Source: a bacterium
GTDB lineage: Bacteria; Bdellovibrionota; Bacteriovoracia; Bacteriovoracales; Bacteriovoracaceae
DNA: 32,758 nucleotides
Direction of reading: 5' to 3'
Assembly: GCA_030425045.1 (NCBI GenBank)
Contig: JAUHVL010000006.1
Span: 132,677-165,434, forward strand
In this document: piece by piece, positions 1-30,684 of the stretch
Layout of the letters: each line of letters starts with the position of its first letter
How positions within the stretch are numbered: position 1 is the first letter of the stretch
Notes under the pieces: model-generated
Seen by the model: only the letters and a program-made list of their open reading frames with translations
What the model was told of the DNA's origin: nothing
Databases searched by the model: none
Made by a program: the position numbers and the translations under genes

Positions 1-257
1 AACTGTGGATATTCATTCGCTTTTTGTTTAATGCCTGCAAGAACAGCATCTACATCTGATTTATTTTTAATAGAATTTATCGCTTCATTAAAATTATCAA
101 TAATAAGTTGTTGTCCCGTAGCTTCTGAGGCTATTGATCTCGGAGCATTTTGTTTAGGTTTAGGTATTGATACATAGTTCATCTTGTCCCAAGCTGAAAA
201 GGCTACAATTCCAAGTAAAAAACAAACTGCTCCAATAATCATTCCGACATTTTTCAT
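1..257 (-). CDS. Membrane-anchored or secreted protein, N-terminal part only (runs off the window)
   Basis: An open frame reads from an ATG at 257 to the window edge, giving 85 codons with no stop. An AGGA-type ribosome binding site lies about 8 bases upstream of the ATG. The first ~22 residues (MKNVGMIIGAVCFLLGIVAF) form one hydrophobic helix after a short basic start, so the protein is either anchored in the inner membrane or has a signal peptide. The rest that can be seen is polar and probably helical. I do not recognise a family. It is divergent from the RND exporter gene, with about 100 bases between the two starts. Confidence 0.6.
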   Translation of the reverse strand, partial: MKNVGMIIGAVCFLLGIVAFSAWDKMNYVSIPKPKQNAPRSIASEATGQQLIIDNFNEAINSIKNKSDVDAVLAGIKQKANEYPQ

Positions 258-356
258 GAATTTTTTCCTAGGTTTACCTTATTACTCTGAAATACTCAGA
301 TTTTCGACATTATCAAAAGTATATACTGCTTTGAGTACTTCCATCAATTAGGTAAA

Positions 357-2579
357 ATGTACATTGGCAAAGAGAAAAATAAACTAATAGTACAAAAGAT
401 ATTGATGAAATTTAATAATACAATTTACAAAATATTATCAATATCAATCCCAATCATTTTAATCAGCTTTTGTATTTTACGTCTCGGAAATATCAAACCA
501 TACCAAGTTCAGAAGCTATTAAGAGAAGGTCATCCCATTCGAGTTTCCTATGAAGAATTTAATAAAAAATATAATGACGAAGATAAAGTTTATATACTTA
601 TAAAGAACAATAAAAAGTTTGAATTTAGCTATGTCGAAAACCTCTTAAATAGAATTAGTCAGGTATTAAAAAGAACTCCAGGAGTAAATTCTTACTCCCA
701 TCTGGGAAATGCAAAGTTTATTAATTACGCAAATAATACCTTTAAACTTGAATCATTTATAAAAAACGGAAACCTTTCGAAGGGCTCTCAAAATCGACTT
801 GAAACAGACTTTTGGAGTAATCATCTTATTTCTGAAGATGGTACAACACTGCTCATTACAGTAACTCTTTCTTCAAAGATTGATCGAAAAAAAAGAGTTC
901 CCTTAATTAAAAAAATTATTCAAAAAATTGAAAGTATTACCAGCAAAAATAACGAGCTTAAAGCCAATTTTATTGGAACTGAGGTTGCGAACTATTGGTT
1001 TACCCATGAAATGATTCGAAATGCCGCACAGATCACGCCTTTGCTCTTTACAATTTTTGGGCTATTTTTCTTTTTAGTTTTTAAGTCCTTTAAGTCAATG
1101 CTTATAAGTTTTATCGTGATCGTACTGGCCTACGCCTCAACGAGTATTCTCATCACCTTTGTCGAGGAAGGTATTGGTCCCTATAGTAACTTTGCTCTCC
1201 TTTTTGTCATTATTGTTTCAACAAGTGACTTAATTCATTTTTTTATTCAATTTAAGCAAAGTCATTCAAACTTAAGCGACACAATAAAAAAAATAAGAAT
1301 CCCATGTCTTCTCACATCTCTTACCACAGCGATCGGTTTTAGTTCATTACTCATTAATGAAAATCTCCCACTCAAATACCTAGGGCTTTACTGTATATCG
1401 GGAACTTTTATAGCTTATTTTTTAACATTTAACTTTGTTCCCCTTACAATAAAAGCCTTTAATGTTACCGTCCCGTCACTAGAGAGCCCAAGAGAAAAGA
1501 CAAATCGTCTCTGGAGTATTATTTTTAATCACTATAAAAAGATTTCAACCTTTTTTATCTTTTTTGCAACACTTCTTTTCATAAATACTTTTAGTCTAAA
1601 GATTGACGATAATACCTATAATAAATTTAATGAAACCCATCCCTTATCCCAAGCTATTACCGCGTTTAAAGACAATCTTAATTTTATGGGATCTGTGGAT
1701 ATTATTATTAAATCTAAAAAACAATCCATCATTTCAGAAAAATCTATTGATGATATTAAAAAATTAGAAAATGATTTACTTAAGATTCCTACAGCAAGCC
1801 ATCTTAAATCATTTTCTCAATTTTACGATAATATGAGAGAAACTCTTGCCAATGATTTTTCAGAAGAAAGAATCGATTCTATCTTCACCATGCTTTACAA
1901 CTATGGCGCCCTCAACTCACTTTATAAATATACAACTAATGAAATAAGAACCACTCTATTTCTTAATAGTTTAAGCTCTACCGATCTAGAAAATACTATT
2001 ATTGAGATTACAAAACTAAAAGATCGTTACCCTCAATTTGAAGTTGAAGTAAACGGTTTTGCAGCAATTAGAAATTATATCAGTCAAAACGTTATCAAGA
2101 ATTTTATCACCTCAATAGCACTGACTTTTGTTTTGATTGCAATAGTTTTTCTCGCTTTATTTAAATCTATAAAATGGAGCCTCCTTGCACTTGTCCCTAA
2201 TCTTCTTCCCCTACTTGTAATCAGTGGGTTCATGGGAATATTTGATATTACTATTGATAATAATCTTCTTATCTTGGTTTCAATTACTCTAGGTATCAGT
2301 GTTGATGATACGATACACTTCATTTACAAACTTAAAGAGAACTTAGAAATAAGTAATCTTGAGATGGCCATTAAAAATACGGTCAACGCTACACTTTATC
2401 CCCTTCTATCTACAACAAGTATCTTTTTACTGACTTTTCCATCTTTTCTTCTATCTGATGTCGTTTTATTCGAACAAGTTGGCTTTTTCCTGATGGCATC
2501 TCTTCTTACAGCATTTGTTGCAGACTTTTTTCTCTTACCATCAGTTTTATTAATCATATCAAAAAAGGATAAGCCATGA
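357..2579 (+). CDS. RND-superfamily (MMPL/HpnN-like) exporter, probably of a lipid
   Basis: A 740-residue inner-membrane protein with the doubled RND layout: one helix at ~25-41, a large periplasmic domain, a block of helices at ~225-370, a helix at ~392-412, a second periplasmic domain, and a final helix block at ~575-735. Proton-relay-like motifs sit in equivalent helices of each half: TSDLIHF (D291, H294) and SVDDTIHF (D650, D651, H654). The second is typical of the COG1033/MMPL branch, whose members move lipids or other hydrophobic molecules. Its stop overlaps the start of the next gene as ATGA, so it is probably co-translated with the phosphatidyltransferase. That makes a lipid product of the neighbours the likely substrate (inference). 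The ATG at 357 has only a weak ribosome binding site; the ATG at 405 is a possible alternative. Confidence 0.85.
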   Translation: MYIGKEKNKLIVQKILMKFNNTIYKILSISIPIILISFCILRLGNIKPYQVQKLLREGHPIRVSYEEFNKKYNDEDKVYILIKNNKKFEFSYVENLLNRISQVLKRTPGVNSYSHLGNAKFINYANNTFKLESFIKNGNLSKGSQNRLETDFWSNHLISEDGTTLLITVTLSSKIDRKKRVPLIKKIIQKIESITSKNNELKANFIGTEVANYWFTHEMIRNAAQITPLLFTIFGLFFFLVFKSFKSMLISFIVIVLAYASTSILITFVEEGIGPYSNFALLFVIIVSTSDLIHFFIQFKQSHSNLSDTIKKIRIPCLLTSLTTAIGFSSLLINENLPLKYLGLYCISGTFIAYFLTFNFVPLTIKAFNVTVPSLESPREKTNRLWSIIFNHYKKISTFFIFFATLLFINTFSLKIDDNTYNKFNETHPLSQAITAFKDNLNFMGSVDIIIKSKKQSIISEKSIDDIKKLENDLLKIPTASHLKSFSQFYDNMRETLANDFSEERIDSIFTMLYNYGALNSLYKYTTNEIRTTLFLNSLSSTDLENTIIEITKLKDRYPQFEVEVNGFAAIRNYISQNVIKNFITSIALTFVLIAIVFLALFKSIKWSLLALVPNLLPLLVISGFMGIFDITIDNNLLILVSITLGISVDDTIHFIYKLKENLEISNLEMAIKNTVNATLYPLLSTTSIFLLTFPSFLLSDVVLFEQVGFFLMASLLTAFVADFFLLPSVLLIISKKDKP

Positions 2580-3160
2580 GCTTATATCAACTCAAACCAG
2601 CATTTCAGAAAATATTGAGGCCACTTGTTATCTTATTAAATAAATGTAACATCACGCCTAATTTTGTGACGATTTCAACATGTCTCATATCCTGCATATT
2701 TTCTTATCTCGTTTTTCTCAATAAAGACTTACTTATTTTTGTCCCACTTTTTTTCTTTCTAAGAATGGCGTTAAATGCAATTGATGGTATGCTTGCTAAA
2801 GAGTTTCAACAAACGACAAATCTAGGTGCTATGTTAAATGAATTAACTGACGTCGTAGCTGATACTGCTTTATATTTTTCGTTAAGTGCACACAGTCTTG
2901 TTTCAATAGACGTTTTACTACTTTTTATCTTTCTCTCAAACCTCTCTGAATTTGCAGGATTGTCTGCATTATCTATTTCTAAAGAAAGACGATTTGATGG
3001 GCCTCTTGGAAAAAGTGATCGTGCACTTTTTATTTCTTTAGTTGCGCTTTTGAGTCATTATTTTACGTTTCAAACAAGTACCATGAATTATGTTTTCTAC
3101 GCTGCAAACATACTATTAATCATAACAATTATTAAAAGAGTTAAAAACGCACTAAGTTAA
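2576..3160 (+). CDS. CDP-alcohol phosphatidyltransferase, YnbA-like, with variant catalytic motif
   Basis: A 194-residue polytopic membrane protein of the family that transfers a phosphatidyl group from CDP-diacylglycerol to an alcohol. The family motif is D-x2-DG-x2-AR-x8-G-x3-D-x3-D. Here it reads N67-x2-D70-G71-x2-A74-K75-x8-G84-x3-N88-x3-D92, so two of four aspartates are asparagines and the arginine is lysine. I recall the NEL(G/T)D variant recurring in YnbA-type proteins, so it is more likely a subfamily trait than decay. The start overlaps the exporter stop (ATGA). At the 3' end it shares the bases TTAA with the stop of the convergent methyltransferase. The acceptor alcohol cannot be told from sequence. 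The pssA gene at 13455 has the full canonical motif. Confidence 0.85.
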   Translation: MSLYQLKPAFQKILRPLVILLNKCNITPNFVTISTCLISCIFSYLVFLNKDLLIFVPLFFFLRMALNAIDGMLAKEFQQTTNLGAMLNELTDVVADTALYFSLSAHSLVSIDVLLLFIFLSNLSEFAGLSALSISKERRFDGPLGKSDRALFISLVALLSHYFTFQTSTMNYVFYAANILLIITIIKRVKNALS

Positions 3161-4131
3161 ATTGATTTCTTTTTAGCGCTTAGAACTCCCATGGTATGGG
3201 GGATGACATCTATTGAGTGATGTTTTACATCTTTAAAATCGCTTTCTACTAACATCCTCGTTAGATCTTTAATTTTTGGCACTCTACCATTTACCGTTCT
3301 CAGCGATAAGCCTAACTTATAAAGACTTCGTGCAAGTTCGCCTTCTTTTTTATTTCCGAAGCAATCAACAATCAAAATTGTCCCTTCATCATTTAAGCAA
3401 TCTCGAGTCTTATTGATAAGAGTTTTTAAATCATCATCTGATTCAAGATGAGCAACATTACCAAGAATTGCCAAGTCATTATTTTTGGAAAAATCTACAA
3501 GATGATAATTACCCTCAATTAGCGAGACTCTCTCCTCTAAGTTATTCTTAGCAATTCTCTCTTTTGCAACTTTTAAAACTCCAGGCCAATCAACCATATA
3601 ACCCTTTGCCTCATTATCTTTTGCTAAAAAGTAACTACTCCAAATTCCTGATCCGGCTCCAATATCAATGATACTTTTATATTTTTGGGGAAATAATTTT
3701 GTTAAATACTGTGCACTTGGCTCCATCATATGGCCAAGAGAGCGAACTTCATTTTGATAGATTTCTTCACTTTCATTCACATCATCCATTTTTCGAAAAG
3801 GAATATTTTCTAAAATAAATGTTGGAAGATGCTCCCAGTACTGAGAACTAAGTGTTTGATAATTGTCTTTCATCATCATAAAAACAGGAGCTAACTTATA
3901 GCCTTGCTCTTCTTTCACCAAGAGATCTAAAGCACATAAAACATCATAAATTTCTTCAAGTGTTTTGGAGTTTAAGCCTTTTTCTGATGCAATTTTTTCG
4001 GTGCTAACTGTATCTTCTACAAAAAAAGGAGCTAATAACTTAAGCTTCGAAACAGTATTAAAAACATAAGCTCCCCCATTCATCGTCATGAGATTAAAGT
4101 ATGTTTTTAATATCTCTTCGTTTGAGCTCAA
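3157..4131 (-). CDS. SAM-dependent methyltransferase, O-methyltransferase type
   Basis: A 324-residue soluble protein with the two-domain plan of acetylserotonin/caffeate-type O-methyltransferases. Residues ~1-85 look like a winged-helix dimerisation domain. Residues ~150-320 form a Rossmann methyltransferase with motif I DIGAGSG (156-162) and the acidic MVDW strand end at ~179-182. It probably methylates a hydroxyl on a small molecule or lipid headgroup; the substrate is unknown. The start is TTG, one base after the stop of the upstream hydrolase-methyltransferase gene, so the two form an operon with coupled translation. It gives the locus a second methyltransferase besides the one fused in its neighbour. 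Confidence 0.8.
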   Translation of the reverse strand: MSSNEEILKTYFNLMTMNGGAYVFNTVSKLKLLAPFFVEDTVSTEKIASEKGLNSKTLEEIYDVLCALDLLVKEEQGYKLAPVFMMMKDNYQTLSSQYWEHLPTFILENIPFRKMDDVNESEEIYQNEVRSLGHMMEPSAQYLTKLFPQKYKSIIDIGAGSGIWSSYFLAKDNEAKGYMVDWPGVLKVAKERIAKNNLEERVSLIEGNYHLVDFSKNNDLAILGNVAHLESDDDLKTLINKTRDCLNDEGTILIVDCFGNKKEGELARSLYKLGLSLRTVNGRVPKIKDLTRMLVESDFKDVKHHSIDVIPHTMGVLSAKKKSI

Positions 4132-4132
4132 C

Positions 4133-5905
4133 CTAACTCACCATTCGTGTATTTTTATTTTTTGAAAATTCAGCTGTCGAAACAGTGAAAATACCCCAAT
4201 TGTCTATTTCCATATCTACTTTTGAAGCTCCCGCTACTTCAAAAAGTTGATCCAACTCTTGCTGAGTCCGACGTCTCATAATCCACTTTTTTCCTTCTCG
4301 ATTACTTAAAGTATTTGCAATCATCTCAAGCTGAGGATGCCAAGGCTGTCCTGTATAAATAAGATAACCATCCTCTTGCATATTATCAGTAAAGCCCGAA
4401 ATAGATTCTGCAACAAGATCATTATCTGGGAATAACTCATAAAGGCCTGAAACAATCACAATATTAGGTGTATAGTCTTGAGTTTCAAAAGACTTTCTAG
4501 AAAATGCATCTTCAACTTTAAATTCAACATTTGTACAGTTTAATGATTTCGCAATCCTCTTTCCTTCATCGATATTTGCGTGAGAGTAATCTCTTAATAA
4601 TACTTTAAAATCAAATCGCTCATATTCTTTTGCTAATTCAATCAGGTAGCGACCAGGTCCAGATGCAATATCCATTATTCTAATTGGTTTTCCTTCTGCT
4701 AGTAACTTATCAACTACATTCCTTACACTATTTTGAAGATTAACTTTTCTTCTTCTAATACCTCTCCAACCGATGGCGTTTATATAGAAATAGTCGATAA
4801 TCTTTCCAAACCAAGTAAATCCTTCTGGCTTATTTTTATATACATGATCAAGTGAAACACCAGAATCAAAACCATATTTCATTCCGACCCGAATGCCCTT
4901 CGACATCCAGCCAAGAGTTTTCATCATCATCTTTTGAAACAAAAACATAAATTCATCAAATAAAGGAGGATGTTTTTGGTATAAGTTTTTATACTCTTCT
5001 CTTGTATATCCTTCTTTGTGAGCATTCGTTAATGACACCACCTCAAGCTCATTTGAAAAGCAATCATGAATAAAGTGAGCACACTCATTGAAAGCTTGAT
5101 GACGTTCTTTTTCATAGAGAACACCATGATAAAAACCACTTAAAGAAACAAACCTTTTTCTTGTAGAAGATAGTTTTTCAAAAAATTCTCTTTGTACTTT
5201 ATTATCAACGACATAATCTTTTTCAGCACTCAAAACAAGCGTCGGGACATGAATAGCTCCAGCGTCTTCAACAACTCGCTTACTGGTATCAAAAAGATCA
5301 ATAAGAATATTAACTGCAATTTGAGGAGTTATAAGAGGGTCAGAATCGTAAAGTTTCTGTTGTTCTACGTCATGGGTTAGAAATTTAGATTTCACATAGC
5401 TAGAAATAAACATCGGCCTTTTAATAAGATCCATTGTCCTCAAACCTGCTAAAGCAAAAGGTACGTATAACTTGACCTTAAAAGCTGGTGCAGCTAAGAC
5501 CATCCCTCTTATTTTTGGAGCATAATCATGAACCCATGTAGAAGCAACAACAGCACCAACACTATTGGCCACAACAAGCATTTCATCAACGGGGATATCA
5601 TATTTCTTTGAAACAAATCTCACAAAACTATCAAGGTCTCTTACCATATGGCCAAAGCTCGGTGCAAACCCTCTCTCTCCAGGAGATTCTCCGTGTCCTC
5701 TACCATCATACCCAAATACCCAATAACCATCTGTACCAATACCTTCAATAAGGTCATCGAGGCGTCCACTATGTTCGTGACCTCTATGTAGTACAATGAT
5801 CGCTTTCTTTTTCGTATCTTTAGATACCGGCATCCAGGATCGGTAAACTAATTTTGTCCCATCAAAAGTTTGGAACTCATCCTTGAGTGCCTCTCTATTA
5901 TGCAT
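4133..5905 (-). CDS. Bifunctional alpha/beta hydrolase - SAM methyltransferase fusion, YnbC-like
   Basis: A 590-residue two-domain protein. Residues ~10-285 are an alpha/beta hydrolase of the monoacylglycerol-lipase/serine aminopeptidase S33 type, with oxyanion-region HRGHEHSGR (40-48), GHGES (70-74), nucleophile elbow VANSVGA (Ser115), acid Asp230 in SAEKD and His260 in GFYHG. Residues ~375-580 are a methyltransferase with DIASGPGRYL (412-421) and DYSHANI (439-445). The same fusion and length are known for E. coli YnbC (~585 residues), which sits with YnbA and YnbB. A role in hydrolysing and methylating a lipid or its headgroup is inferred. The start has an AGGGG ribosome binding site about 6 bases upstream. 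The elbow has Ala instead of the first Gly of GxSxG. Confidence 0.85.
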   Translation of the reverse strand: MHNREALKDEFQTFDGTKLVYRSWMPVSKDTKKKAIIVLHRGHEHSGRLDDLIEGIGTDGYWVFGYDGRGHGESPGERGFAPSFGHMVRDLDSFVRFVSKKYDIPVDEMLVVANSVGAVVASTWVHDYAPKIRGMVLAAPAFKVKLYVPFALAGLRTMDLIKRPMFISSYVKSKFLTHDVEQQKLYDSDPLITPQIAVNILIDLFDTSKRVVEDAGAIHVPTLVLSAEKDYVVDNKVQREFFEKLSSTRKRFVSLSGFYHGVLYEKERHQAFNECAHFIHDCFSNELEVVSLTNAHKEGYTREEYKNLYQKHPPLFDEFMFLFQKMMMKTLGWMSKGIRVGMKYGFDSGVSLDHVYKNKPEGFTWFGKIIDYFYINAIGWRGIRRRKVNLQNSVRNVVDKLLAEGKPIRIMDIASGPGRYLIELAKEYERFDFKVLLRDYSHANIDEGKRIAKSLNCTNVEFKVEDAFSRKSFETQDYTPNIVIVSGLYELFPDNDLVAESISGFTDNMQEDGYLIYTGQPWHPQLEMIANTLSNREGKKWIMRRRTQQELDQLFEVAGASKVDMEIDNWGIFTVSTAEFSKNKNTRMVS

Positions 5906-6000
5906 TTCTAACCCCTATGTTGATTTTCTGATATGTGCTATCATTGAGTAACATTAGATTAATGGTAACAAGTTGATATGGTTGTTCTCAAGTAGGTCAA

Positions 6001-6945
6001 ATGATCCCATTTTTAATATTCCCAAATGAAATCACCTTTTTACTAATATGTTACTTTTTTGCTCTATTATTTTTCACTCTTATTTTTGTTCCACTAAACA
6101 AGTTAAAACCAAGTAATTTAACAAAGAATTTAAAAGAACGTGTTTTCTCTTGGTGGATCATTTTTATCTGCTACCTGATTTTCTTAGGTATCAATAAAGA
6201 AATTAGCTTTATAGGTTTTTGTCTCTGCTCTTTTATTGCCCATAGAGAGCTTATTTCAAACCTAAGTTTTCCTATTGAATCTAGAAGAATAGTCCTATGG
6301 TCATATCTTGCAATCCCTGTTCAATACTATATTGCTTATACCGGTAAACTTATCCCCTTTTTAGTTTTTCTACCCTTAGGAATGCTCTTTCTTATTTCAC
6401 TAAGAAATATTTTAGAAGATAAGCCAGAATTTAGTTTAAAGGTATTCACAGAGCTTTATTGGTCATTAATGTTAACGACTTTTACAATTTCACACATTCC
6501 ATATATTTTAAACTTACCAACATCTCCTGCGGAACAAAACGCTCCTCAAGCTCTAATCTTTTTTCTTATTTTCATCACTGCTTCAAATGATATCTTTCAG
6601 TATACCTTCGGTAAGCTCTTTGGTCGTAAAAAAGTATTTCCACAAACAAGTCCGAACAAGACTCTCGCTGGAATTATCGGAGGAGTGGTTGGTAGCTTAG
6701 CCCTAGCCTATTTATTCAAAGATATTATGCCACTATCACTAAAACAAACCTTGCTATTAGGAGCTATCATTTCACTTAGTGGTTTCCTTGGTGATATGAA
6801 TATTTCCTCTCTCAAAAGAAATTTAAACGTTAAAGATATGAGCAATTTTATTCCAGGTCATGGAGGCGTACTCGATCGCTTAGATTCACTTTGTTTTTCT
6901 TCAATCGCTTTCTTTTATACAATTTATAGCTGGATATACGCTTGA
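6001..6945 (+). CDS. Phosphatidate cytidylyltransferase paralogue, YnbB-like
   Basis: A 314-residue polytopic membrane protein that should convert phosphatidate and CTP to CDP-diacylglycerol. The CdsA signature is complete near the C terminus: SSLKRNLNVKDMS followed by IPGHGGVLDRLDSL (269-297). SNDIFQY...GKLFGRK...SPNKT (195-220) matches the upstream conserved block. It is a second copy; the housekeeping cdsA is at 17081. The N-terminal half is unlike that copy and fits the YnbB type (~300 residues). It diverges from the YnbC-like gene across 95 bases and overlaps the next gene by 4 bases. A dedicated CDP-diacylglycerol supply for the YnbA-like enzyme is the natural inference. Confidence 0.88.
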   Translation: MIPFLIFPNEITFLLICYFFALLFFTLIFVPLNKLKPSNLTKNLKERVFSWWIIFICYLIFLGINKEISFIGFCLCSFIAHRELISNLSFPIESRRIVLWSYLAIPVQYYIAYTGKLIPFLVFLPLGMLFLISLRNILEDKPEFSLKVFTELYWSLMLTTFTISHIPYILNLPTSPAEQNAPQALIFFLIFITASNDIFQYTFGKLFGRKKVFPQTSPNKTLAGIIGGVVGSLALAYLFKDIMPLSLKQTLLLGAIISLSGFLGDMNISSLKRNLNVKDMSNFIPGHGGVLDRLDSLCFSSIAFFYTIYSWIYA

Positions 6946-7574
6946 GAAAAGTACACGCCTTCTTATTAATCATTATTCATAAAGTTATTATGTATCCTTT
7001 CCTAAGAGTTTTTATAGGGATGGAAGTACAAAGAAATCAGAGTCTATTTTTAGGAAAATATATTATTGTATCTAATCACTCCTCACACACTGATACTTCA
7101 GCAATCCTTAGTATCTTACCACTCTCAAAGATACATAAACTAAGACCTGTTGCGGCTCAAGATTATTTTACTAAAAACAAACTTTTTAAAATATTTACTC
7201 AACTTTTCTATAATGCCATATTCATAGATCGCGTTACGAAAGATGGAAAACAAAACTCTATCAATATCATGGCACAAACCATTGATCGTGGAGACAATCT
7301 CCTCATCTTTCCAGAAGGCTCTAGAGTATCGAGTGATAAAGTAGGCCCTTTCAAATCTGGGGTTATAAAAATCCTCAAGGAGAAACCTGAAATTCCCTAC
7401 ATACCAATTTATATAGACTCATCCGCAAACACTCTTCCAAAGGGAGATGGCTTACTCATTCCTCATAATTTTAAAGTTGTCATTGGAGATGCGAAGTTTA
7501 TTGATCCAAAGATGAACGACGAGGAATCTTTGAAAAAAATTAGAGACTCTGTCGTGAGTTTAGCGAGCTTGTGA
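6942..7574 (+). CDS. 1-acyl-sn-glycerol-3-phosphate acyltransferase, PlsC family
   Basis: A 210-residue membrane-associated acyltransferase. Motif I is NHSSHTD (His46, Asp51; the HX4D catalytic pair), and motif III is FPEGSR (123-128), the acyl-acceptor phosphate site. An N-terminal hydrophobic helix (~7-26) anchors it. The family makes phosphatidate by acylating lysophosphatidate. The start is TTG overlapping the TGA of the cytidylyltransferase (TTGA), so the two are translationally coupled: acylation, then CDP activation. Because this is a separate set from general phospholipid synthesis, it may select special acyl chains (inference). Confidence 0.87.
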   Translation: MRKVHAFLLIIIHKVIMYPFLRVFIGMEVQRNQSLFLGKYIIVSNHSSHTDTSAILSILPLSKIHKLRPVAAQDYFTKNKLFKIFTQLFYNAIFIDRVTKDGKQNSINIMAQTIDRGDNLLIFPEGSRVSSDKVGPFKSGVIKILKEKPEIPYIPIYIDSSANTLPKGDGLLIPHNFKVVIGDAKFIDPKMNDEESLKKIRDSVVSLASL

Positions 7575-7700: not shown

Positions 7701-7794
7701 AAAAAGATTAAACTCCTAAATAGACTAACGGTTCCTCCCCAAAAAATATTGAATACCCCTGCCCGAGGTGGAAAAAAACTCCATTGTAAGTTAT

Positions 7795-8490
7795 ATGTAT
7801 AATAAGAGGATGAATGAAAACTTAGTACTTTTTAGTACAACACATTACATTTCCAGCTTAACTGTTATATTTATTATCGCTTTATCAGTCTTTCTTTGTT
7901 CTAAATTTAAGATATCATTTGGAAAAAAATATAGTGTCTTTCTTGTCATCTATTACGTACTTGACTGCATGATCAGAAATAGTGTCCGCGAACTTCATAT
8001 TATAGAGTACCTACCTCTTCATATCTGTAGTATCCTTTTTTTCATCTCAGCATATTCTTTCTATAAGGAAAGTATCATTGGCCATCAAATTACTTTTTTT
8101 TGGACCTTTTCACTAACTCTGCAATCATTAATTTTTCCAATTCCTGGTGACCACCTCTACTCGCTAGAGTTTTTTCGCTATTTTCTCACACACGGATTAA
8201 TTATATTTAATGCATGTTATGTTTTTTTTAGATTAAACATACCTCTTAATTTTCAATCTTTATTAAACTCTTTCTATGCTTTACAAGTACTCATACTCAT
8301 TGCCATTCCTTTTAATTACTTTTTTGAACTAAATTTTATGTTCTTAAATCAAAAACCTCCATCCCCAACTCCCGTCGACTACTTTGGTCCGTGGCCTTGG
8401 TATGTTTTAGTGGTAGATCTCATCACATTTATGGTATTTAGTTTACTGCTCTTACTTACTAAAATAATTTCGAGGATAAGAGGTAATTAA
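7795..8490 (+). CDS. YwaF/TMEM164-family integral membrane protein (TIGR02206 type)
   Basis: A polytopic membrane protein of about 230 residues with roughly six to seven helices. The family landmarks are present: an early FSTTH segment, ELHIIEYLPLHIC, FFWTFSLTLQSLIFPIPGD, FRYFLTHG, and near the end FLNQKPPSPTPVD followed by FGPWPWY. I know this pattern from TIGR02206/YwaF proteins. The animal relative TMEM164 is reported to be an acyltransferase for ether phospholipids using a cysteine, and the Cys in LPLHIC is a candidate equivalent. Next to a phospholipid-making block, a lipid acyl-transfer role is attractive but unproven. The start is uncertain: GTG 7768, ATG 7795 and ATG 7810 are in frame and none has a well-spaced ribosome binding site. 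A TATAAT at 7798-7803 could even favour 7810. Confidence 0.75.
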   Translation: MYNKRMNENLVLFSTTHYISSLTVIFIIALSVFLCSKFKISFGKKYSVFLVIYYVLDCMIRNSVRELHIIEYLPLHICSILFFISAYSFYKESIIGHQITFFWTFSLTLQSLIFPIPGDHLYSLEFFRYFLTHGLIIFNACYVFFRLNIPLNFQSLLNSFYALQVLILIAIPFNYFFELNFMFLNQKPPSPTPVDYFGPWPWYVLVVDLITFMVFSLLLLLTKIISRIRGN

Positions 8491-12506: not shown

Positions 12507-13483
12507 TAAAGATAATCAAAAGTGAAGCCTGCACCTATTGAAGATCCAGAAATAGATATTTCGTCCTGAAAGTTTTCATAAGTTTGATGTCTCATCATGA
12601 CATTTAAGTAATAGTTAGTAATTTTATAATCACTAAATAAGTTAAACATACTACTTGAAAAAATATTACCTAAACTTATCTTCAGCTTAGCCGTTGCAAA
12701 ATATCCCGGGCTAACCTGCCTACGGTACTTATATTTTTCACCAGATTCTTTATCGTCTCTATTTTGATAAAGTCCCATAGCAGATGGACCGCCAGATACT
12801 GCGAGGTTCAAAAATCTCCCAAGTGGTAGCTCCATAGTCAAAGAAAAATCTAGAGGAAGAGACCATAAAGTAAAAGTTGTATCACTTTCAGACTGTGAAG
12901 TTGAAAAGGAGCCCTTACCTTTACTCATTCCCATACCTAAGTTGAATCCATAGGCAAAGTCGAAAAAGCCTCGATAAAAATAGCGATCCATACCGAGCTG
13001 AACTCCACCATATCTATTAGCACCTGAGCTTTGTTCAAAAGTTTTTCTGTATATGCCTCGACTATCCGTTATTTCATAATCGTCACTGATGTAACTAAAC
13101 GATAACGCCCAAGTTCCTTTTCTATAAATATTTTTAAAAATATCTCTATTATTCGTTTCAAGATAATTTTCTCTTTTATTAAAAGGCATTGTTACACCAA
13201 AGCCTCCAATAGAACTTTTTATCTCAGCTTTTTCTGCTTTACTACCAGGAACGTGAAAGGAGTCCGCTTCTTCATCGTCGTTTTTAAATTCAGTAATTTC
13301 TTTTTCTAAGTCTTTGGAAGCACCAGGAACAAAAGCACTCTCTCCACTTTCAATTGCTTCAATTTCACTAAAGTCTTTTTTCTGATCACCAAGGTATTGA
13401 CCAGCATCCTCAGCATGAATGGAACTTAAAATAAGAACAAGGAATATAAGTAAACTAGTTTTCTTCTTCCCACTCAAAAGCAT
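12506..13483 (-). CDS. Secreted protein, candidate outer-membrane beta-barrel
   Basis: About 325 residues with a signal peptide (basic GKKKTS, then LLIFLVLILSS, cleavage likely after IHA). A charged Glu/Asp/Ser-rich linker of ~80 residues contains a doubled phrase (FVPGASKDLEKE and FHVPGSKAEKAE). After that, roughly 220 residues alternate aromatic and polar positions and end in GAGFTFDYL, as in small beta-barrels. No named family is recognised. TTG 13489, GTG 13486 and ATG 13483 are consecutive in-frame starts; ATG 13483 suits the AGGAAAG about 10 bases upstream. The 5' end overlaps the pssA 3' end by ~30 bases and the stop overlaps truA, so it is embedded in the phospholipid and tRNA operon. 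Confidence 0.65.
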   Translation of the reverse strand: MLLSGKKKTSLLIFLVLILSSIHAEDAGQYLGDQKKDFSEIEAIESGESAFVPGASKDLEKEITEFKNDDEEADSFHVPGSKAEKAEIKSSIGGFGVTMPFNKRENYLETNNRDIFKNIYRKGTWALSFSYISDDYEITDSRGIYRKTFEQSSGANRYGGVQLGMDRYFYRGFFDFAYGFNLGMGMSKGKGSFSTSQSESDTTFTLWSLPLDFSLTMELPLGRFLNLAVSGGPSAMGLYQNRDDKESGEKYKYRRQVSPGYFATAKLKISLGNIFSSSMFNLFSDYKITNYYLNVMMRHQTYENFQDEISISGSSIGAGFTFDYL

Positions 13484-14189
13484 CACCAAATTCTTTCCTA
13501 CGTTTCAAATAAACTGTTAGTGAAATGATAACATACAAATTCATAAAAACTAATGTCATGATTTTGTAGTAGGAAAACAAAAGAGCAGCAGCAACAATAC
13601 CAACAAAAAATCCAAATCTTTTATGTCTTTCAGCGAAGCTTGAATCTTTAAATGAGAAAAATGGTATCGTTGTCACCATAAGAATACTGTAAAGAAAGAC
13701 ATAAATTACCGATATAAAAGGAAAGGCATCAAACTCAGGAAATTTTTCAAAGAAAAAAACAAAACCGACGATTGCAGTGGCAGCACCGGGTATTGGTAAC
13801 CCCTGAAAAAAATCATTTCTTATATTTTTAATATTAGCATTAAAGCGAGCAAGCCTGAGTGCACCGCACAATATATAAATAAAGGCCACGACCGCGCCGA
13901 GCTTATTATAAAAAACTAAATATTTTTTGAACATCAAAATGGCAGGGGCCATTCCAAAGGAAATCAGATCACTCATAGAATCAAACTGCTCTCCAAACTG
14001 AGAAGATGTTCCCGTCATTCTAGCAACTCTTCCATCAACAGAATCAAAAATTGCTCCCAATATTAAAATCATACAAGCATCATCAAATTTCCCCTGAAGA
14101 GAAAAAACAATTGAGGCAAAGCCACATGCCATATTCAAAGCTGTAAAAATATTGGGAAGAAAAAATGCTAGTTTTTTAGAGTTTTGCAA
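13455..14189 (-). CDS. pssA: CDP-diacylglycerol-serine O-phosphatidyltransferase
   Basis: A 244-residue polytopic membrane enzyme that makes phosphatidylserine from CDP-diacylglycerol and serine. The full CDP-alcohol phosphotransferase motif is present: D49-x2-D52-G53-x2-A56-R57-x8-G66-x3-D70-x3-D74. The N-terminal LPNIFTALNMACGF and the motif spacing match the Bacillus-type PssA. The start is TTG with AGG-rich bases about 8 upstream, 7 bases after the psd-like stop. The pairing pssA-psd is common, but here the decarboxylase partner looks catalytically dead, so the fate of the phosphatidylserine is a real question. Confidence 0.93.
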   Translation of the reverse strand: MQNSKKLAFFLPNIFTALNMACGFASIVFSLQGKFDDACMILILGAIFDSVDGRVARMTGTSSQFGEQFDSMSDLISFGMAPAILMFKKYLVFYNKLGAVVAFIYILCGALRLARFNANIKNIRNDFFQGLPIPGAATAIVGFVFFFEKFPEFDAFPFISVIYVFLYSILMVTTIPFFSFKDSSFAERHKRFGFFVGIVAAALLFSYYKIMTLVFMNLYVIISLTVYLKRRKEFGDAFEWEEEN

Positions 14190-14196
14190 ACTGAAC

Positions 14197-14871
14197 CTAC
14201 CTATTTTCTATCGTGCCAGCGATCAGCGTTTCACCCGACTCTACACTTTGGCCTTCTTGAACGAGAATCTCAAAATTCTCTGGAAAGTAAAAATGCAATG
14301 TTCCTCCAAAGGGAAAATAGCCAATATTAGCGACATTTTTCCCACGATCTCCAGGCATAACATAAATATGAGGAGACATACCTAAAGGACAATTCGTAAA
14401 GTGTAATCCCAAAGTACCGTCTTGAATAGTTTCAAGCTGTAAGTAATACCCAGGTGGAATCTCACCTCCAAAGGAAATCGGCTTTGGCCATCTATATCTA
14501 AAGTTTGGTTTCCCAGCTTTATAAATAAGATCTTTTACTTCTGCTGTTTTCGGTAGATTGATACCAAACTCTTTCCACCAAGGAATAACAATCCTTATCT
14601 CACTTAAACTAGAACCAAAAACATCATGATTTATATTTTTTCTAATCGAAGTAACTGTTCCATTTACGGGAGAGAATAACACCTCATCTCGTTTGCCTTT
14701 ATCCTCTTTAAAAAAATGGTTAAATTTTCTAAAAATTAAAATAAGGGCGACATGAATAATAAAGAATAAAAAGAAAAAGGCACCCGAAAGAAAAATCATC
14801 AAGAATAAAGCAATTACCCAAAACCATACATGAAATCTAAATGGTAAATATGTTCTATAAAACCTATTCAT
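14197..14871 (-). CDS. Phosphatidylserine decarboxylase homologue lacking the catalytic residues
   Basis: A 224-residue protein with the fold landmarks of the short Psd type: two N-terminal hydrophobic segments (~12-48), SPVNGTVTSI (67-76), IVIPWWKEFGINLP, FGGTLHFYFP (188-197) and EGQSVESGETLIAG (206-219). In active Psd the chain self-cleaves at G-S-[ST], and the serine becomes the pyruvoyl cofactor. Here the codons read GGA GGA ACA, giving G189-G190-T191, so that serine is missing. The aspartate of the usual SPxDG is Asn70, and the usual histidine of the DxH block aligns with Gly103. The frame is intact, so it is a probable pseudoenzyme rather than a pseudogene. It overlaps tsaB by 8 bases and is followed after 7 bases by pssA. 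A lipid-binding or PssA-regulating role is possible; a divergent active enzyme is less likely. Confidence 0.75.
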   Translation of the reverse strand: MNRFYRTYLPFRFHVWFWVIALFLMIFLSGAFFFLFFIIHVALILIFRKFNHFFKEDKGKRDEVLFSPVNGTVTSIRKNINHDVFGSSLSEIRIVIPWWKEFGINLPKTAEVKDLIYKAGKPNFRYRWPKPISFGGEIPPGYYLQLETIQDGTLGLHFTNCPLGMSPHIYVMPGDRGKNVANIGYFPFGGTLHFYFPENFEILVQEGQSVESGETLIAGTIENR

Positions 14872-17080: not shown

Positions 17081-17905
17081 TTAAGAGTAATAAAAATTTA
17101 CCATAATTACGAAAAAAGGAGAAAGGAAAAGTAAACTATCAAGACGATCATAAACCCCACCGTGACCAGGAATTAGTCCAGAGGCATCTTTAACATCAGT
17201 TTGTCTTTTTATCTTAGATTGAATCAAGTCTCCAAACTGAGAAAGAATACCTAGCAATGAAAACAAAATGATCAGATATGGAGAAATATCACCAACAAAA
17301 TAATTCCAAGCCAAAGAACCTAGTATACTTGAGCACAAAGCACCACCAATCAATCCTTCAATCGTTTTCTTAGGACTTACTTTTTCCCATAGTTTTCTTT
17401 TGCCAAACTTTTTACCAAAGAACCAAGCACCGGTATCCATTCCAAAATTAATCAAAAGCATAATGAAAATTAGAGATCTCCAATTTTCATAACGATACAG
17501 TAAGGAAATATTCAGCCATGGCAGTAAAACCATAATTGCAATCAAAAAAGGAACCCACTCTCTTACCGATTTAATTAGATTAGACTTAATATCGATAAAA
17601 AATAAGTAAGCTAATAAGACTATATTCACGGCTAAGGCGGTATACATAGTCACTTCACTAGGAATCGTTAAGAACCTTGAAAAATTATAGACCAAATATG
17701 GTGCAACAAAGATCCCTTGAGTGACAAAGTAATAAACCTCTAATCTATTTCTACTCAGAATATTACAATAAACCTCATCAATAATGAGAACACCAAAACA
17801 TAACATCATCATTGTTAATGAAGCAGTACCCCAGTAAATACAAAAGAAGACTATGGCCATTAAGACAAATGCTGATAATATTCTTTTCTTTGTTTCAGAC
17901 GACAC
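17081..17905 (-). CDS. cdsA: Phosphatidate cytidylyltransferase (housekeeping)
   Basis: A 274-residue polytopic membrane enzyme that makes CDP-diacylglycerol, the precursor of all phospholipids. The CDS signature SKIKRQTDVKD followed by LIPGHGGVYDRLDSL (230-258) is complete, and DTGAWFFGKKFGKR with SPKKTIEG (157-184) precedes it. The start is GTG overlapping the uppS stop as TAGTG, with AAGGT about 8 bases upstream. Its place between uppS and rseP is the standard bacterial order. It differs from the 314-residue paralogue at 6001, which belongs to the accessory lipid block. Confidence 0.96.
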   Translation of the reverse strand: MSSETKKRILSAFVLMAIVFFCIYWGTASLTMMMLCFGVLIIDEVYCNILSRNRLEVYYFVTQGIFVAPYLVYNFSRFLTIPSEVTMYTALAVNIVLLAYLFFIDIKSNLIKSVREWVPFLIAIMVLLPWLNISLLYRYENWRSLIFIMLLINFGMDTGAWFFGKKFGKRKLWEKVSPKKTIEGLIGGALCSSILGSLAWNYFVGDISPYLIILFSLLGILSQFGDLIQSKIKRQTDVKDASGLIPGHGGVYDRLDSLLFLSPFFVIMVNFYYS

Positions 17906-29041: not shown

Positions 29042-29884
29042 TTAAGCGAGAAGGCCACCCATTGCGGTGGCCTTTTTTGATTTAATTTTTTCCCAATCAA
29101 TCGGGTCTCTTTCATTTAATGAATTTTTAATAAGACTAATTCTTAAAGCACACTTATTTTTAAATCTTTTTTTATTAATTCCTAAATTACTACAATGTAG
29201 CTGAGCCGTATCAAAAACAATGACATCACCGGGACACCATGAAAAAATATTTTCAACAGAAAAACCCGAAAATCTTTCTATCGGTGAAGTTCGGCCTAAA
29301 TCAAGTTGATTAAAAATCTCATCATCAAATCGATACTCTTTATAATCAATTTGTTTTCCCATAATGTCGTATAAATTTTTTAAATGATGATAATCTTCGA
29401 TACTATTGTAATGACTCTCACTTTTTGACGGCCCATTATCTAATGTCGTACCGTAATCAATTAATCTCTCATTGAAAGTGACAGGATGACAGTCAGAATC
29501 AACTGGCCTTAAAAACAGAGGAATTAAAATTGATTTGTAAGCATAGTCACCACTACAAAATCCAAGATCTTCTTCTTCAGGCATATCAGAGTGAAAGCCA
29601 TATTGATGAGGCGTAATAAAATAATTACCTCTTAAAGCAACCACATCATCTAAGTCTATTAAGTTTTTTAATTTTTCATAAAAAATACTAATAATAAAAT
29701 CGAAGTTTCCAGAAAAAAATATATTTCCCGATTTCCCTAGTCTTCTCTTACTAGTTCCTTTAAACATAAAACGTATAAGCTTCTCACATTCTTCTTCTGA
29801 AAAGATATTTTTATGACATTCACTCTTTGAAAAACTTTTCAAGTAATGATCGATATTTAAATCAATATTTAACTTATCTCTCAT
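29042..29884 (-). CDS. Fe(II)/2-oxoglutarate dioxygenase-like protein, paralogue A
   Basis: A 280-residue soluble protein with the iron-binding facial triad of the jelly-roll dioxygenases: H98-x-D100 in YGFHSDMP and distal H230 in FDTAQLHCSNLG. Arg248 in CALRIS is the likely 2-oxoglutarate anchor. The general plan is like phytanoyl-CoA dioxygenase relatives; the hydroxylated substrate is unknown. It is a tandem duplicate of the upstream gene, with all triad residues and the phrases TPHQYGFH, FNER, GTTLD, GPSKS and HYNSI in common. The start overlaps the upstream stop (ATGA). The C terminus runs 10-12 residues past the end of its twin (after DWEKIK), and that tail is encoded by the neighbour's terminator hairpin. 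Confidence 0.75.
   Translation of the reverse strand: MRDKLNIDLNIDHYLKSFSKSECHKNIFSEEECEKLIRFMFKGTSKRRLGKSGNIFFSGNFDFIISIFYEKLKNLIDLDDVVALRGNYFITPHQYGFHSDMPEEEDLGFCSGDYAYKSILIPLFLRPVDSDCHPVTFNERLIDYGTTLDNGPSKSESHYNSIEDYHHLKNLYDIMGKQIDYKEYRFDDEIFNQLDLGRTSPIERFSGFSVENIFSWCPGDVIVFDTAQLHCSNLGINKKRFKNKCALRISLIKNSLNERDPIDWEKIKSKKATAMGGLLA
29051..29078 (+). terminator. Rho-independent terminator of the secreted-protein unit
   Basis: AAGGCCACC pairs with GGTGGCCTT around a 6-base loop, followed by TTTT on the plus strand. It lies inside the last codons of the convergent dioxygenase-like gene, where it encodes the tail KATAMGGLLA. On the minus strand no T-run follows, so it acts one way only. Confidence 0.9.
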
Positions 29885-30684
29885 TTAAGTTTTTCCCAGT
29901 CTATCGGGTCTCTTTTATTTTTTAAGTTTTTATAAAAACTCATCCTTAAGCCAGCTTTATTTTTAAAGAGCTCTTTCTTTAATCCTAAATTACTACAATG
30001 TAGCTGAGTAGTATCAAACACCATCGCATCACCGGGAGTCCAATCATATACAGATTCTATAGAGAATCCATTAAATCTTTCTTTCGGAGAAGTAGCTCCC
30101 ATATTGTATTTTTCAAATAAATCATTATCAAAGTCTTTATCTTCATATTTAATTTCTAGTCCACTCTCATTGTACAGGTTTTCTATTTCATCATAGTTAC
30201 TAATACTATTATAATGAGTATCACTTTTAGAGGGTCCTCTATCAAGAGTCGTTCCGTGACTTAAAATCCTCTCGTTAAATAGCATGAAGTGACATTTCGC
30301 TTTTTGAGGAAGATGAAAAAGAGGAATTAAGATTGTACAAAAAGCAACATCACCTTCAACAAAATGATGATCTCCCTTCTCAGGCATATCTGTATGAAAC
30401 CCATATTGGTGAGGTGTTAAAAAAAAATTCCCCCCCACTTTAACTATTTCCGACAAATCTATCATTTCATTAAATTTATCAAAAAACTTTATAATTATTT
30501 TTTCGAAATTTTCAGAAAAAAACATATTACCAGAACTACCAAGACGATAAACACCTGTTTCTTTAAACATAAAATCTATCAACCATTCAACATCACTTGA
30601 ACTTAAAATATTTTGGTAACATCTCGAAGAACTAATATTAGACCTATAAAAGCTAATATTGTTTTTTATATCAATACTTGGCAT
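29881..30684 (-). CDS. Fe(II)/2-oxoglutarate dioxygenase-like protein, paralogue B
   Basis: A 267-residue twin of the following gene, collinear end to end. The metal triad is H97-x-D99 in YGFHTDMP and H229 in FDTTQLHCSNLG, with Arg247 as the likely 2-oxoglutarate contact. Both twins keep a complete set of ligands, so both are probably active, perhaps on different substrates or sites. Differences cluster in the N-terminal ~40 residues and in the loop around 100-135. It is first in the two-gene operon and faces the HTTM-like membrane pair across 59 bases. No signal peptide, so the action is cytoplasmic. Confidence 0.75.
   Translation of the reverse strand: MPSIDIKNNISFYRSNISSSRCYQNILSSSDVEWLIDFMFKETGVYRLGSSGNMFFSENFEKIIIKFFDKFNEMIDLSEIVKVGGNFFLTPHQYGFHTDMPEKGDHHFVEGDVAFCTILIPLFHLPQKAKCHFMLFNERILSHGTTLDRGPSKSDTHYNSISNYDEIENLYNESGLEIKYEDKDFDNDLFEKYNMGATSPKERFNGFSIESVYDWTPGDAMVFDTTQLHCSNLGLKKELFKNKAGLRMSFYKNLKNKRDPIDWEKLK

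Follow-up and report, generated by a model that had tools for sequence, protein, structure and literature searches.

A conserved and unusual variant of the ynb cassette, joined to an RND pump, in a Bacteriovoracaceae genome

Introduction

What does a ynb cassette make when it is found with an acyltransferase, an O-methyltransferase (OMT) and an RND/MMPL exporter, and without YnbD? The question is raised by a stretch of 32,758 nt (the window) from a member of the Bacteriovoracaceae (assembly GCA_030425045.1, contig JAUHVL010000006.1, positions 132,677 to 165,434), in which homologues of YnbA, YnbB and YnbC lie side by side, all inside 4.4 kb. The genome (G000) comprises 3.97 Mb and its YnbC groups with the Bacteriovoracaceae YnbC proteins in the tree. 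An earlier note, made from the sequence alone, had described six adjacent genes of the window as a ynbABC-like phospholipid cassette coupled to an exporter.

In E. coli K-12, ynbABCD is a lipid operon without a settled product. The earlier note was fair in saying that the function of E. coli ynbABC is unsettled, although YnbB has been published as a backup enzyme of MPIase synthesis (PMC6362211, PMC7018664). This assignment comes largely from overproduction: an excess of YnbB raises the MPIase level, deletion of ynbB leaves it unchanged (PMC6362211), and YnbB cannot replace CdsA for growth (PMC6362211, PMC7018664). No function has been assigned to YnbD, which failed to complement mutants in undecaprenyl-pyrophosphate or phosphatidylglycerol phosphate (PGP) phosphatases (PMC7413402). 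A transposon insertion in ynbC raised polyphosphate in one strain, but the Keio deletion did not (PMC2435150); the phenotype of the transposon mutant may be polar or stress-related. Within the literature covered, the search for PF12147 and ynbABCD gave no match.

Results

All six open reading frames (ORFs) were found where the earlier note had placed them and in the families it had named (MMPL/RND, CDP-OH_P_transf, Methyltransf_2, Hydrolase_4 plus Methyltransf_20, CTP_transf_1 and Acyltransferase; Table 1). The term ynbABC-like is right as homology, YnbA, YnbB and YnbC being 40%, 35% and 45% identical to their E. coli K-12 counterparts, with the same domain layout. The six genes do not form one operon. 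YnbA (+) and OMT (-) converge with a 4-bp overlap (3157-3160) and YnbC (-) and YnbB (+) diverge, hence there are three transcription units on two strands: pump-YnbA (+), YnbC-OMT (-) and YnbB-PlsC (+). Each of them is a coupled pair, as had been noticed before. The stop of the pump gene overlaps the YnbA start in ATGA (2576-2579), with AAAAAAGGAT upstream, the YnbB stop overlaps the PlsC start in TTGA (6942-6945), and a single base (4132) separates the YnbC stop from the TTG start of OMT.

Contigs of 84,980 species were scanned. The single-sequence scan with the window YnbC found no relatives; the alignment-based scan found 548, of which the best 80 were kept, so that the sample leans to closer relatives. 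Neighbours were counted at 66 non-redundant YnbC loci flanked on each side by 3.5 kb or more, with ORFs called and families assigned by profile; since the iterated YnbA profile had taken up one YnbA-YnbC fusion ORF, an ORF was assigned only to its best-scoring family. YnbA (60 loci), YnbB (56), YnbD (49) and PlsC (47) turned out to be the standard neighbours of YnbC across several phyla, with OMT (12), a small DMT/SMR-like protein (11) and the pump (3) being rarer. Its presence at 47 of the 66 loci makes PlsC a normal cassette member. The earlier note had regarded it as added acyl supply, which was wrong: it is E. coli K-12 that has no PlsC next to its ynb genes, its operon being a reduced form of the cassette.

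The conserved neighbourhood, without which the earlier note would have given up its reading, is present in relatives. The complete six-gene set in the same order was found in G017 (Bdellovibrionales RIFOXYC1; L009, on the same contig as L015) and G075 (L108), both of which have an additional small membrane gene between YnbA and OMT. Recurrence of the full gene set and order at 41-46% pump identity is not due to chance. YnbA was detected in 13 of 13 tested genomes holding YnbC or the pump-YnbA pair, even where it is not beside YnbC, and was not found in the pump-only genome G020. In one case, a Planctomycetia metagenome assembly, YnbA (N-terminus) and YnbC (C-terminus) share a single 866-aa frame (L076:9119-11719). 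By these two observations the six genes do look like one lipid pathway, as had been proposed, although not one operon.

The housekeeping phospholipid genes pssA (13455-14189), psd (14197-14871, named by eye) and cdsA (17081-17905) lie in the same window. YnbB is thus a second CDP-diacylglycerol synthase, as the earlier note had it, and both YnbA and YnbB are extra family members with another job.

YnbD is indeed absent from the window. The domain search found no DSPc domain in the whole genome, and the sole YnbD match there is to a free-standing PAP2 protein of 222 aa, encoded on a different contig (28% over residues 9-187). YnbD of the common form of the cassette has DSP and PAP2 domains. Among the loci with OMT or the small membrane protein 12 of 13 were without YnbD, whereas 48 of the 53 other loci had it. 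In raw counts (12 versus 1, loci with flanks) the association of OMT with YnbD absence gave a Fisher p of 1.5e-8, but the tree provides only three to five independent OMT/YnbD pairs, in the same direction where both were scored and too few for significance. Parsimony placed five changes between OMT/SMR and YnbD on the YnbC tree, and the OMT/SMR arrangement occurs in at least four separate places on it: in the Bacteriovoracaceae group, Woeseiaceae (L034), a planctomycete (L054) and a pair made up of an acidobacterium (L019) and a myxococcote (L075). Three Verrucomicrobia have YnbD plus a related OMT 4-8 kb away. With few independent contrasts and these three genomes, mutual exclusion of OMT and YnbD was rejected as a rule; the alternation is a tendency. 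A small membrane protein (about 140 aa) recurs next to YnbD at L036, L078, L031 and about 18 other loci, in three sequence clusters, one weakly matching 8xMP and another with an example unmatched in Pfam and NCBIfam.

YnbA has the CDP-alcohol phosphotransferase fold and matches the PF01066 profile. Its predicted structure (AlphaFold, pLDDT 95) gave RsPIPS, a phosphatidylinositol phosphate (PIP) synthase, as the best PDB match (Z 20.2 versus 11.5 for PGP synthase), and PIP synthases are also the closest solved structures by sequence (7.7e-18, about 19% identity). On the PIPSynth model (NF045883) it scored 51.7 against a cut-off of 170. The full eight-residue signature D1xxD2GxxAR...GxxxD3xxxD4 is not kept, D1 and D3 being replaced by asparagines (N67 and N88) and the arginine of AR by Lys75 in the window protein, while D2, G, A, G and D4 are retained, as is the P-N-x-x-T CDP motif. 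Residues N67, D70, N88, D92, K146, R149 and R188 are invariant in 40-42 homologues, and the Asn/Asn form spans Pseudomonadota, Campylobacterota, Bacteroidota, Verrucomicrobiota, Planctomycetota and Bdellovibrionota. The normal signature, with all four aspartates, is found in PssA and PgsA of the window genome. D96, considered as a YnbA-specific substitute metal ligand, was discarded because the aligned PIP synthases and AF2299 also have Asp there. The Asn/Asn change is unmentioned in the literature examined, in which no search was aimed at it and most subscription journals were outside coverage.

R149 and R188, invariant in 42 homologues, fall in the alignment on arginines that PIP synthases conserve, and they match R153 and R191 of RsPIPS by position and by the RxxR motif. 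The RsPIPS pair binds the acceptor phosphate and is absolutely conserved among PIP synthases, though not in eukaryotic PI synthases; the equivalent residues of MtPIPS are required for activity and their loss cripples the enzyme (PMC4634129). This correspondence predicts a phosphorylated acceptor for YnbA.

Catalytic residues are intact in YnbC and OMT. Residues 7-286 of YnbC match monoglyceride lipases in sequence (1e-22) and fold (Z 35 to human MGL); the fold matches listed cover the lipase half only, and the methyltransferase half was not placed. The triad S115, D230, H260 and the S-adenosylmethionine (SAM)-site residues D412, G416 and D439 are invariant in 38 YnbC homologues. OMT is 39-42% identical to the YnbC-adjacent OMTs of G029 and G017, and its SAM site DIGAGSG (D156/G158/G160) and H228, which we take from family knowledge to be the catalytic His, are invariant in three cassette OMTs. 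Judged by these residues, both YnbC and OMT look active. YnbB carries the C-terminal signature of CDP-diacylglycerol synthases, K-R ... G-H-G-G-x-x-D-R-x-D (reading SSLKRN...GHGGVLDRLDS). PlsC, one of five PF01553 proteins in the genome, is 32-40% identical to PlsC of related cassettes.

Other genes were seen near these families. Genes for a patatin-like phospholipase and for an SDR enzyme are found repeatedly in the vicinity of YnbC in Oxalobacteraceae, Bacteroidota and one Desulfobacterales genome (L017, L040, L065, L069, L079, L081). A PigE-like protein with an acyl-ACP-reductase match is encoded close to YnbB in a Bacteriovoracaceae genome (L104:12642-14690), and ORFs of similar size and arrangement occupy that place in L110 and L111.

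The relatives of the pump fall at 39-46% identity (G075, G017, G150, G029, G020), followed by a step to 28-36% and then by other MMPL proteins. YnbA lies directly downstream of the pump gene in four genomes, G000, G017, G075 and G150, the last showing adjacency only as its contig ends inside YnbA; in G029 the two are not adjacent. The coupling is kept in relatives: all three junctions read, from three genera with pump identity of about 41-46%, have overlapping stop and start codons (ATGA, ATGA, TTGA) and an AAGGA- or AAAGGA-type ribosome site upstream of YnbA. The pump subfamily, however, is not specific to the cassette. Elsewhere it stands beside Rieske/SDR gene sets, the pump gene being followed by Rieske, SDR or ferritin-like genes, with its own divergent partner of about 530 aa, designated P530. 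P530 is, as judged by eye, anchored in the membrane at its N-terminus; it matches no Pfam or NCBIfam family and is the commonest neighbour of the pump, more constant than YnbA. The full gene was read at L011:16342-17934. Homologues flank the pump at L009/L015, L108, L153 and eight further pump loci, with a fragment at L159; P530 is present at most pump loci having upstream sequence, not at L154. Identity with HpnN, the hopanoid exporter, was ruled out by score (49.7 and 28.5 bits versus cut-offs of 752 and 1100). The pump would be a module for the export of lipids or hydrophobes that came to be linked to YnbA in a part of the family.

At L155:10613-16664 and at L156 the same pump family and P530 occur with SDR, ferritin-like and Rieske oxygenase genes nearby, apparently another lipid or hydrophobe pathway using this exporter. 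In the Bacteriovorax cassettes L013, L014, L016 and L033 (e.g., L016:13675-15736) a 222-aa hexapeptide-repeat-like protein takes the place of the pump, adjoining YnbA and a divergent cytochrome P450.

Two further places in the window deserve mention. Just downstream of PlsC, positions 7768-8490 encode an integral membrane acyltransferase of the TMEM164/TP0381 family (Pfam 1.8e-34, NCBIfam above cut-off), followed by an unmatched 251-aa ORF. Neither ORF was found at related cassettes, and the TMEM164-like gene, its profile being unmatched in related loci, was left out of the cassette. The minus strand at 29042-30684 carries a pair of neighbouring ORFs, each of about 270 aa, whose similarity suggests by eye a tandem duplication.

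Table 1. Features of the cassette and its flank, in window positions.
Feature	Position	Strand	Basis
P530, N-terminal 85 residues; gene runs on left of the window	3..257	-	full gene G000:C86:131341-132933
99-bp intergenic region P530/pump, presumed shared promoter region	258..356	.	sequence read
RND/MMPL exporter, 740 aa	357..2579	+	MMPL 3.7e-20; HAE3 126 bits; HpnN 50 bits
YnbA, PIP-synthase-like CDP-alcohol phosphotransferase, 194 aa	2576..3160	+	PF01066 5.1e-9
Methyltransf_2-type O-methyltransferase (OMT), 324 aa, TTG start	3157..4131	-	PF00891 3.7e-14
YnbC, monoglyceride-lipase-like hydrolase (Hydrolase_4) + Methyltransf_20 fusion, 590 aa	4133..5905	-	PF12147 5.6e-110; PF12146 4.1e-64
Divergent intergenic region YnbC/YnbB, presumed promoters	5906..6000	.	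sequence read
YnbB, second CDP-diacylglycerol synthase, 314 aa	6001..6945	+	PF01148 (CTP_transf_1) 8.6e-57
PlsC-type acyltransferase, 210 aa, TTG start overlapping YnbB stop	6942..7574	+	PF01553 1.8e-18

Discussion

The locus holds a genuine ynb cassette, conserved in relatives and of unusual make-up, and it probably makes an unusual phospholipid. The pathway proposed in the earlier note is plausible, with corrections as to PlsC, the division into three units and the specificity of the pump. We put at about one in two the chance that this Bacteriovoracaceae-type version of a widespread cassette is a dedicated pathway for a special phospholipid, working beside the housekeeping PssA/Psd/CdsA route. 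The analysis establishes the gene content with its orthology, the conserved couplings, the intact catalytic residues, and the predicted fold and Asn/Asn signature of YnbA; the reactions, their order, the phosphorylated acceptor and the export of this lipid by the pump are what we infer. PlsC would build or restore a particular phosphatidate, YnbB would activate it to CDP-diacylglycerol, and YnbA would transfer the phosphatidyl group to a phosphate-bearing acceptor, held by K146, R149 and R188 in the manner of PIP synthases. The lipase half of YnbC may then remove or move an acyl chain and its methyltransferase half methylate the product. A phosphatidyl-X-phosphate would need a phosphatase, as PIP and PGP do, and a phosphorylated YnbA product would explain YnbD, a PAP2-DSP phosphatase, which in the common form would take off the head-group phosphate. 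In the window form OMT would act in the place of YnbD, in relatives together with the small DMT/SMR-like membrane protein. Export of the product from the inner membrane would fall to the RND pump, which is co-translated with YnbA.

A wider proposal may be built on this. YnbA would form a subclass of its own among the CDP-alcohol phosphotransferases, marked by an Asn/Asn metal site and making an undescribed phosphatidyl-X-phosphate; many phyla would synthesize this lipid by the ynb cassette and finish it in one of two ways, YnbD removing a phosphate or OMT with the DMT/SMR-like protein adding an O-methyl group; and a dedicated RND pump would export the finished lipid in some Bacteriovoracaceae-type bacteria. 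In this full form the proposal is tentative, and we would expect it to fail sooner than to hold.

Several observations weigh against the special-phospholipid pathway. Every YnbA with a readable motif has Asn for D1 and D3, which are metal ligands in PIP synthase, therefore ordinary catalysis by YnbA is not to be assumed. The window genome has no inositol-1-phosphate synthase (PF07994), which makes de novo inositol phosphate unlikely as the acceptor; inositol-1-phosphate was set aside as a candidate. No homologue of the small DMT/SMR-like protein was found in that genome either. The pump is absent from most ynb cassettes and elsewhere accompanies unrelated gene sets, and no product or enzyme activity was found in the literature examined for any YnbA, YnbC or YnbD.

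Four alternatives were weighed. The one that we take most seriously, while still thinking it the less probable account of the junction, is that pump and P530 are an independent export module which ended up upstream of YnbA without handling the YnbA product. The constancy of P530, the restriction of the pump-YnbA order to four genomes, the other genes that follow the pump elsewhere and the separation of pump and YnbA in G029 all agree with it, but a neutral adjacency would be expected to break, and the stop-start overlap is kept in three genera. It seems rather unlikely that YnbA has ceased to be a phosphatidyltransferase and serves as a binding or regulatory protein or catalyzes another reaction (e.g., with a single metal). 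N67 and N88 replace metal ligands in all homologues read, in a genome whose PssA and PgsA keep theirs; nevertheless D2, the presumed catalytic base D4, the basic acceptor pocket and, in the window protein, the CDP motif persist, and 15 positions invariant across phyla are not what one would expect of a dead enzyme.

Remodelling or salvage that starts at YnbC, with its lipase half breaking down or deacylating a lipid (own, damaged or, in predators, prey-derived), YnbA, YnbB and PlsC rebuilding it and the methyltransferases marking the fragment, appears improbable to a similar degree. The hydrolase half of YnbC has the monoglyceride-lipase fold with an intact triad, PlsC-type enzymes reacylate lysolipids, and the Bacteriovoracaceae are known for predators. 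The cassette is, however, common in bacteria that are not predators (Pseudomonas, Chromobacterium, Verrucomicrobia, Campylobacterota), and most of the phylum lacks it, YnbC (PF12147) having been found in 14 of 369 genomes in the whole-genome search. Least probable of all is that YnbB backs up the synthesis of the glycolipid MPIase (GlcNAc-PP-diacylglycerol), its neighbours being separate or serving the same glycolipid. The rise of MPIase on YnbB overproduction and the failure of YnbB to substitute for CdsA (PMC6362211, PMC7018664) speak for this role; the lack of effect of the ynbB deletion (PMC6362211) speaks against it, and a stand-alone role leaves the company of YnbB (YnbA, YnbC, PlsC and YnbD, in many phyla) unexplained.

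The comparison recasts the ynb cassette: the full set includes PlsC and, as a rule, YnbD, and it comes in two forms, with YnbD or with OMT. It likewise recasts YnbA as a PIP-synthase-like protein with a predicted phosphate-binding acceptor pocket and a changed metal site. If so, a laboratory strain deleted for ynbD should contain a phosphorylated lipid intermediate, and one that overexpresses ynbAB together with a PlsC should make a new lipid.

Comparison with Known Systems

The nearest known system is E. coli K-12 ynbABCD (b1408-b1411), with YnbA, YnbB and YnbC homologous throughout and of the same domain layout. The E. coli genes lie on one strand, include YnbD and have no PlsC, OMT or pump beside them, whereas the window lacks YnbD, has the other three and is arranged in units on two strands. 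With the common cassette YnbA-YnbB-PlsC-YnbC-YnbD (Chromobacterium L055, Pseudomonas L078, Verrucomicrobia L020) the window shares YnbA, YnbB, PlsC and YnbC, but it has OMT instead of YnbD and a pump added.

At the level of single proteins, YnbA shares with the actinobacterial PIP synthases (RsPIPS, MtPgsA1, MkPIPS) the fold (Z about 20), the aspartates D2 and D4 and the two arginines that bind phosphate; it differs in the Asn at D1 and D3, in an identity of about 19% and in residing in a genome without inositol-1-phosphate synthase. The 740-aa pump has the MMPL domains of the RND lipid exporters (HAE3/HpnN/MmpL), yet it scores far below the HpnN and HAE3 cut-offs and is linked to P530 and YnbA. 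YnbC resembles over residues 7-286 the monoglyceride lipases (human MGLL, Rv0183; Z about 35, triad kept), from which it is set apart by the methyltransferase fused at its C-terminus.

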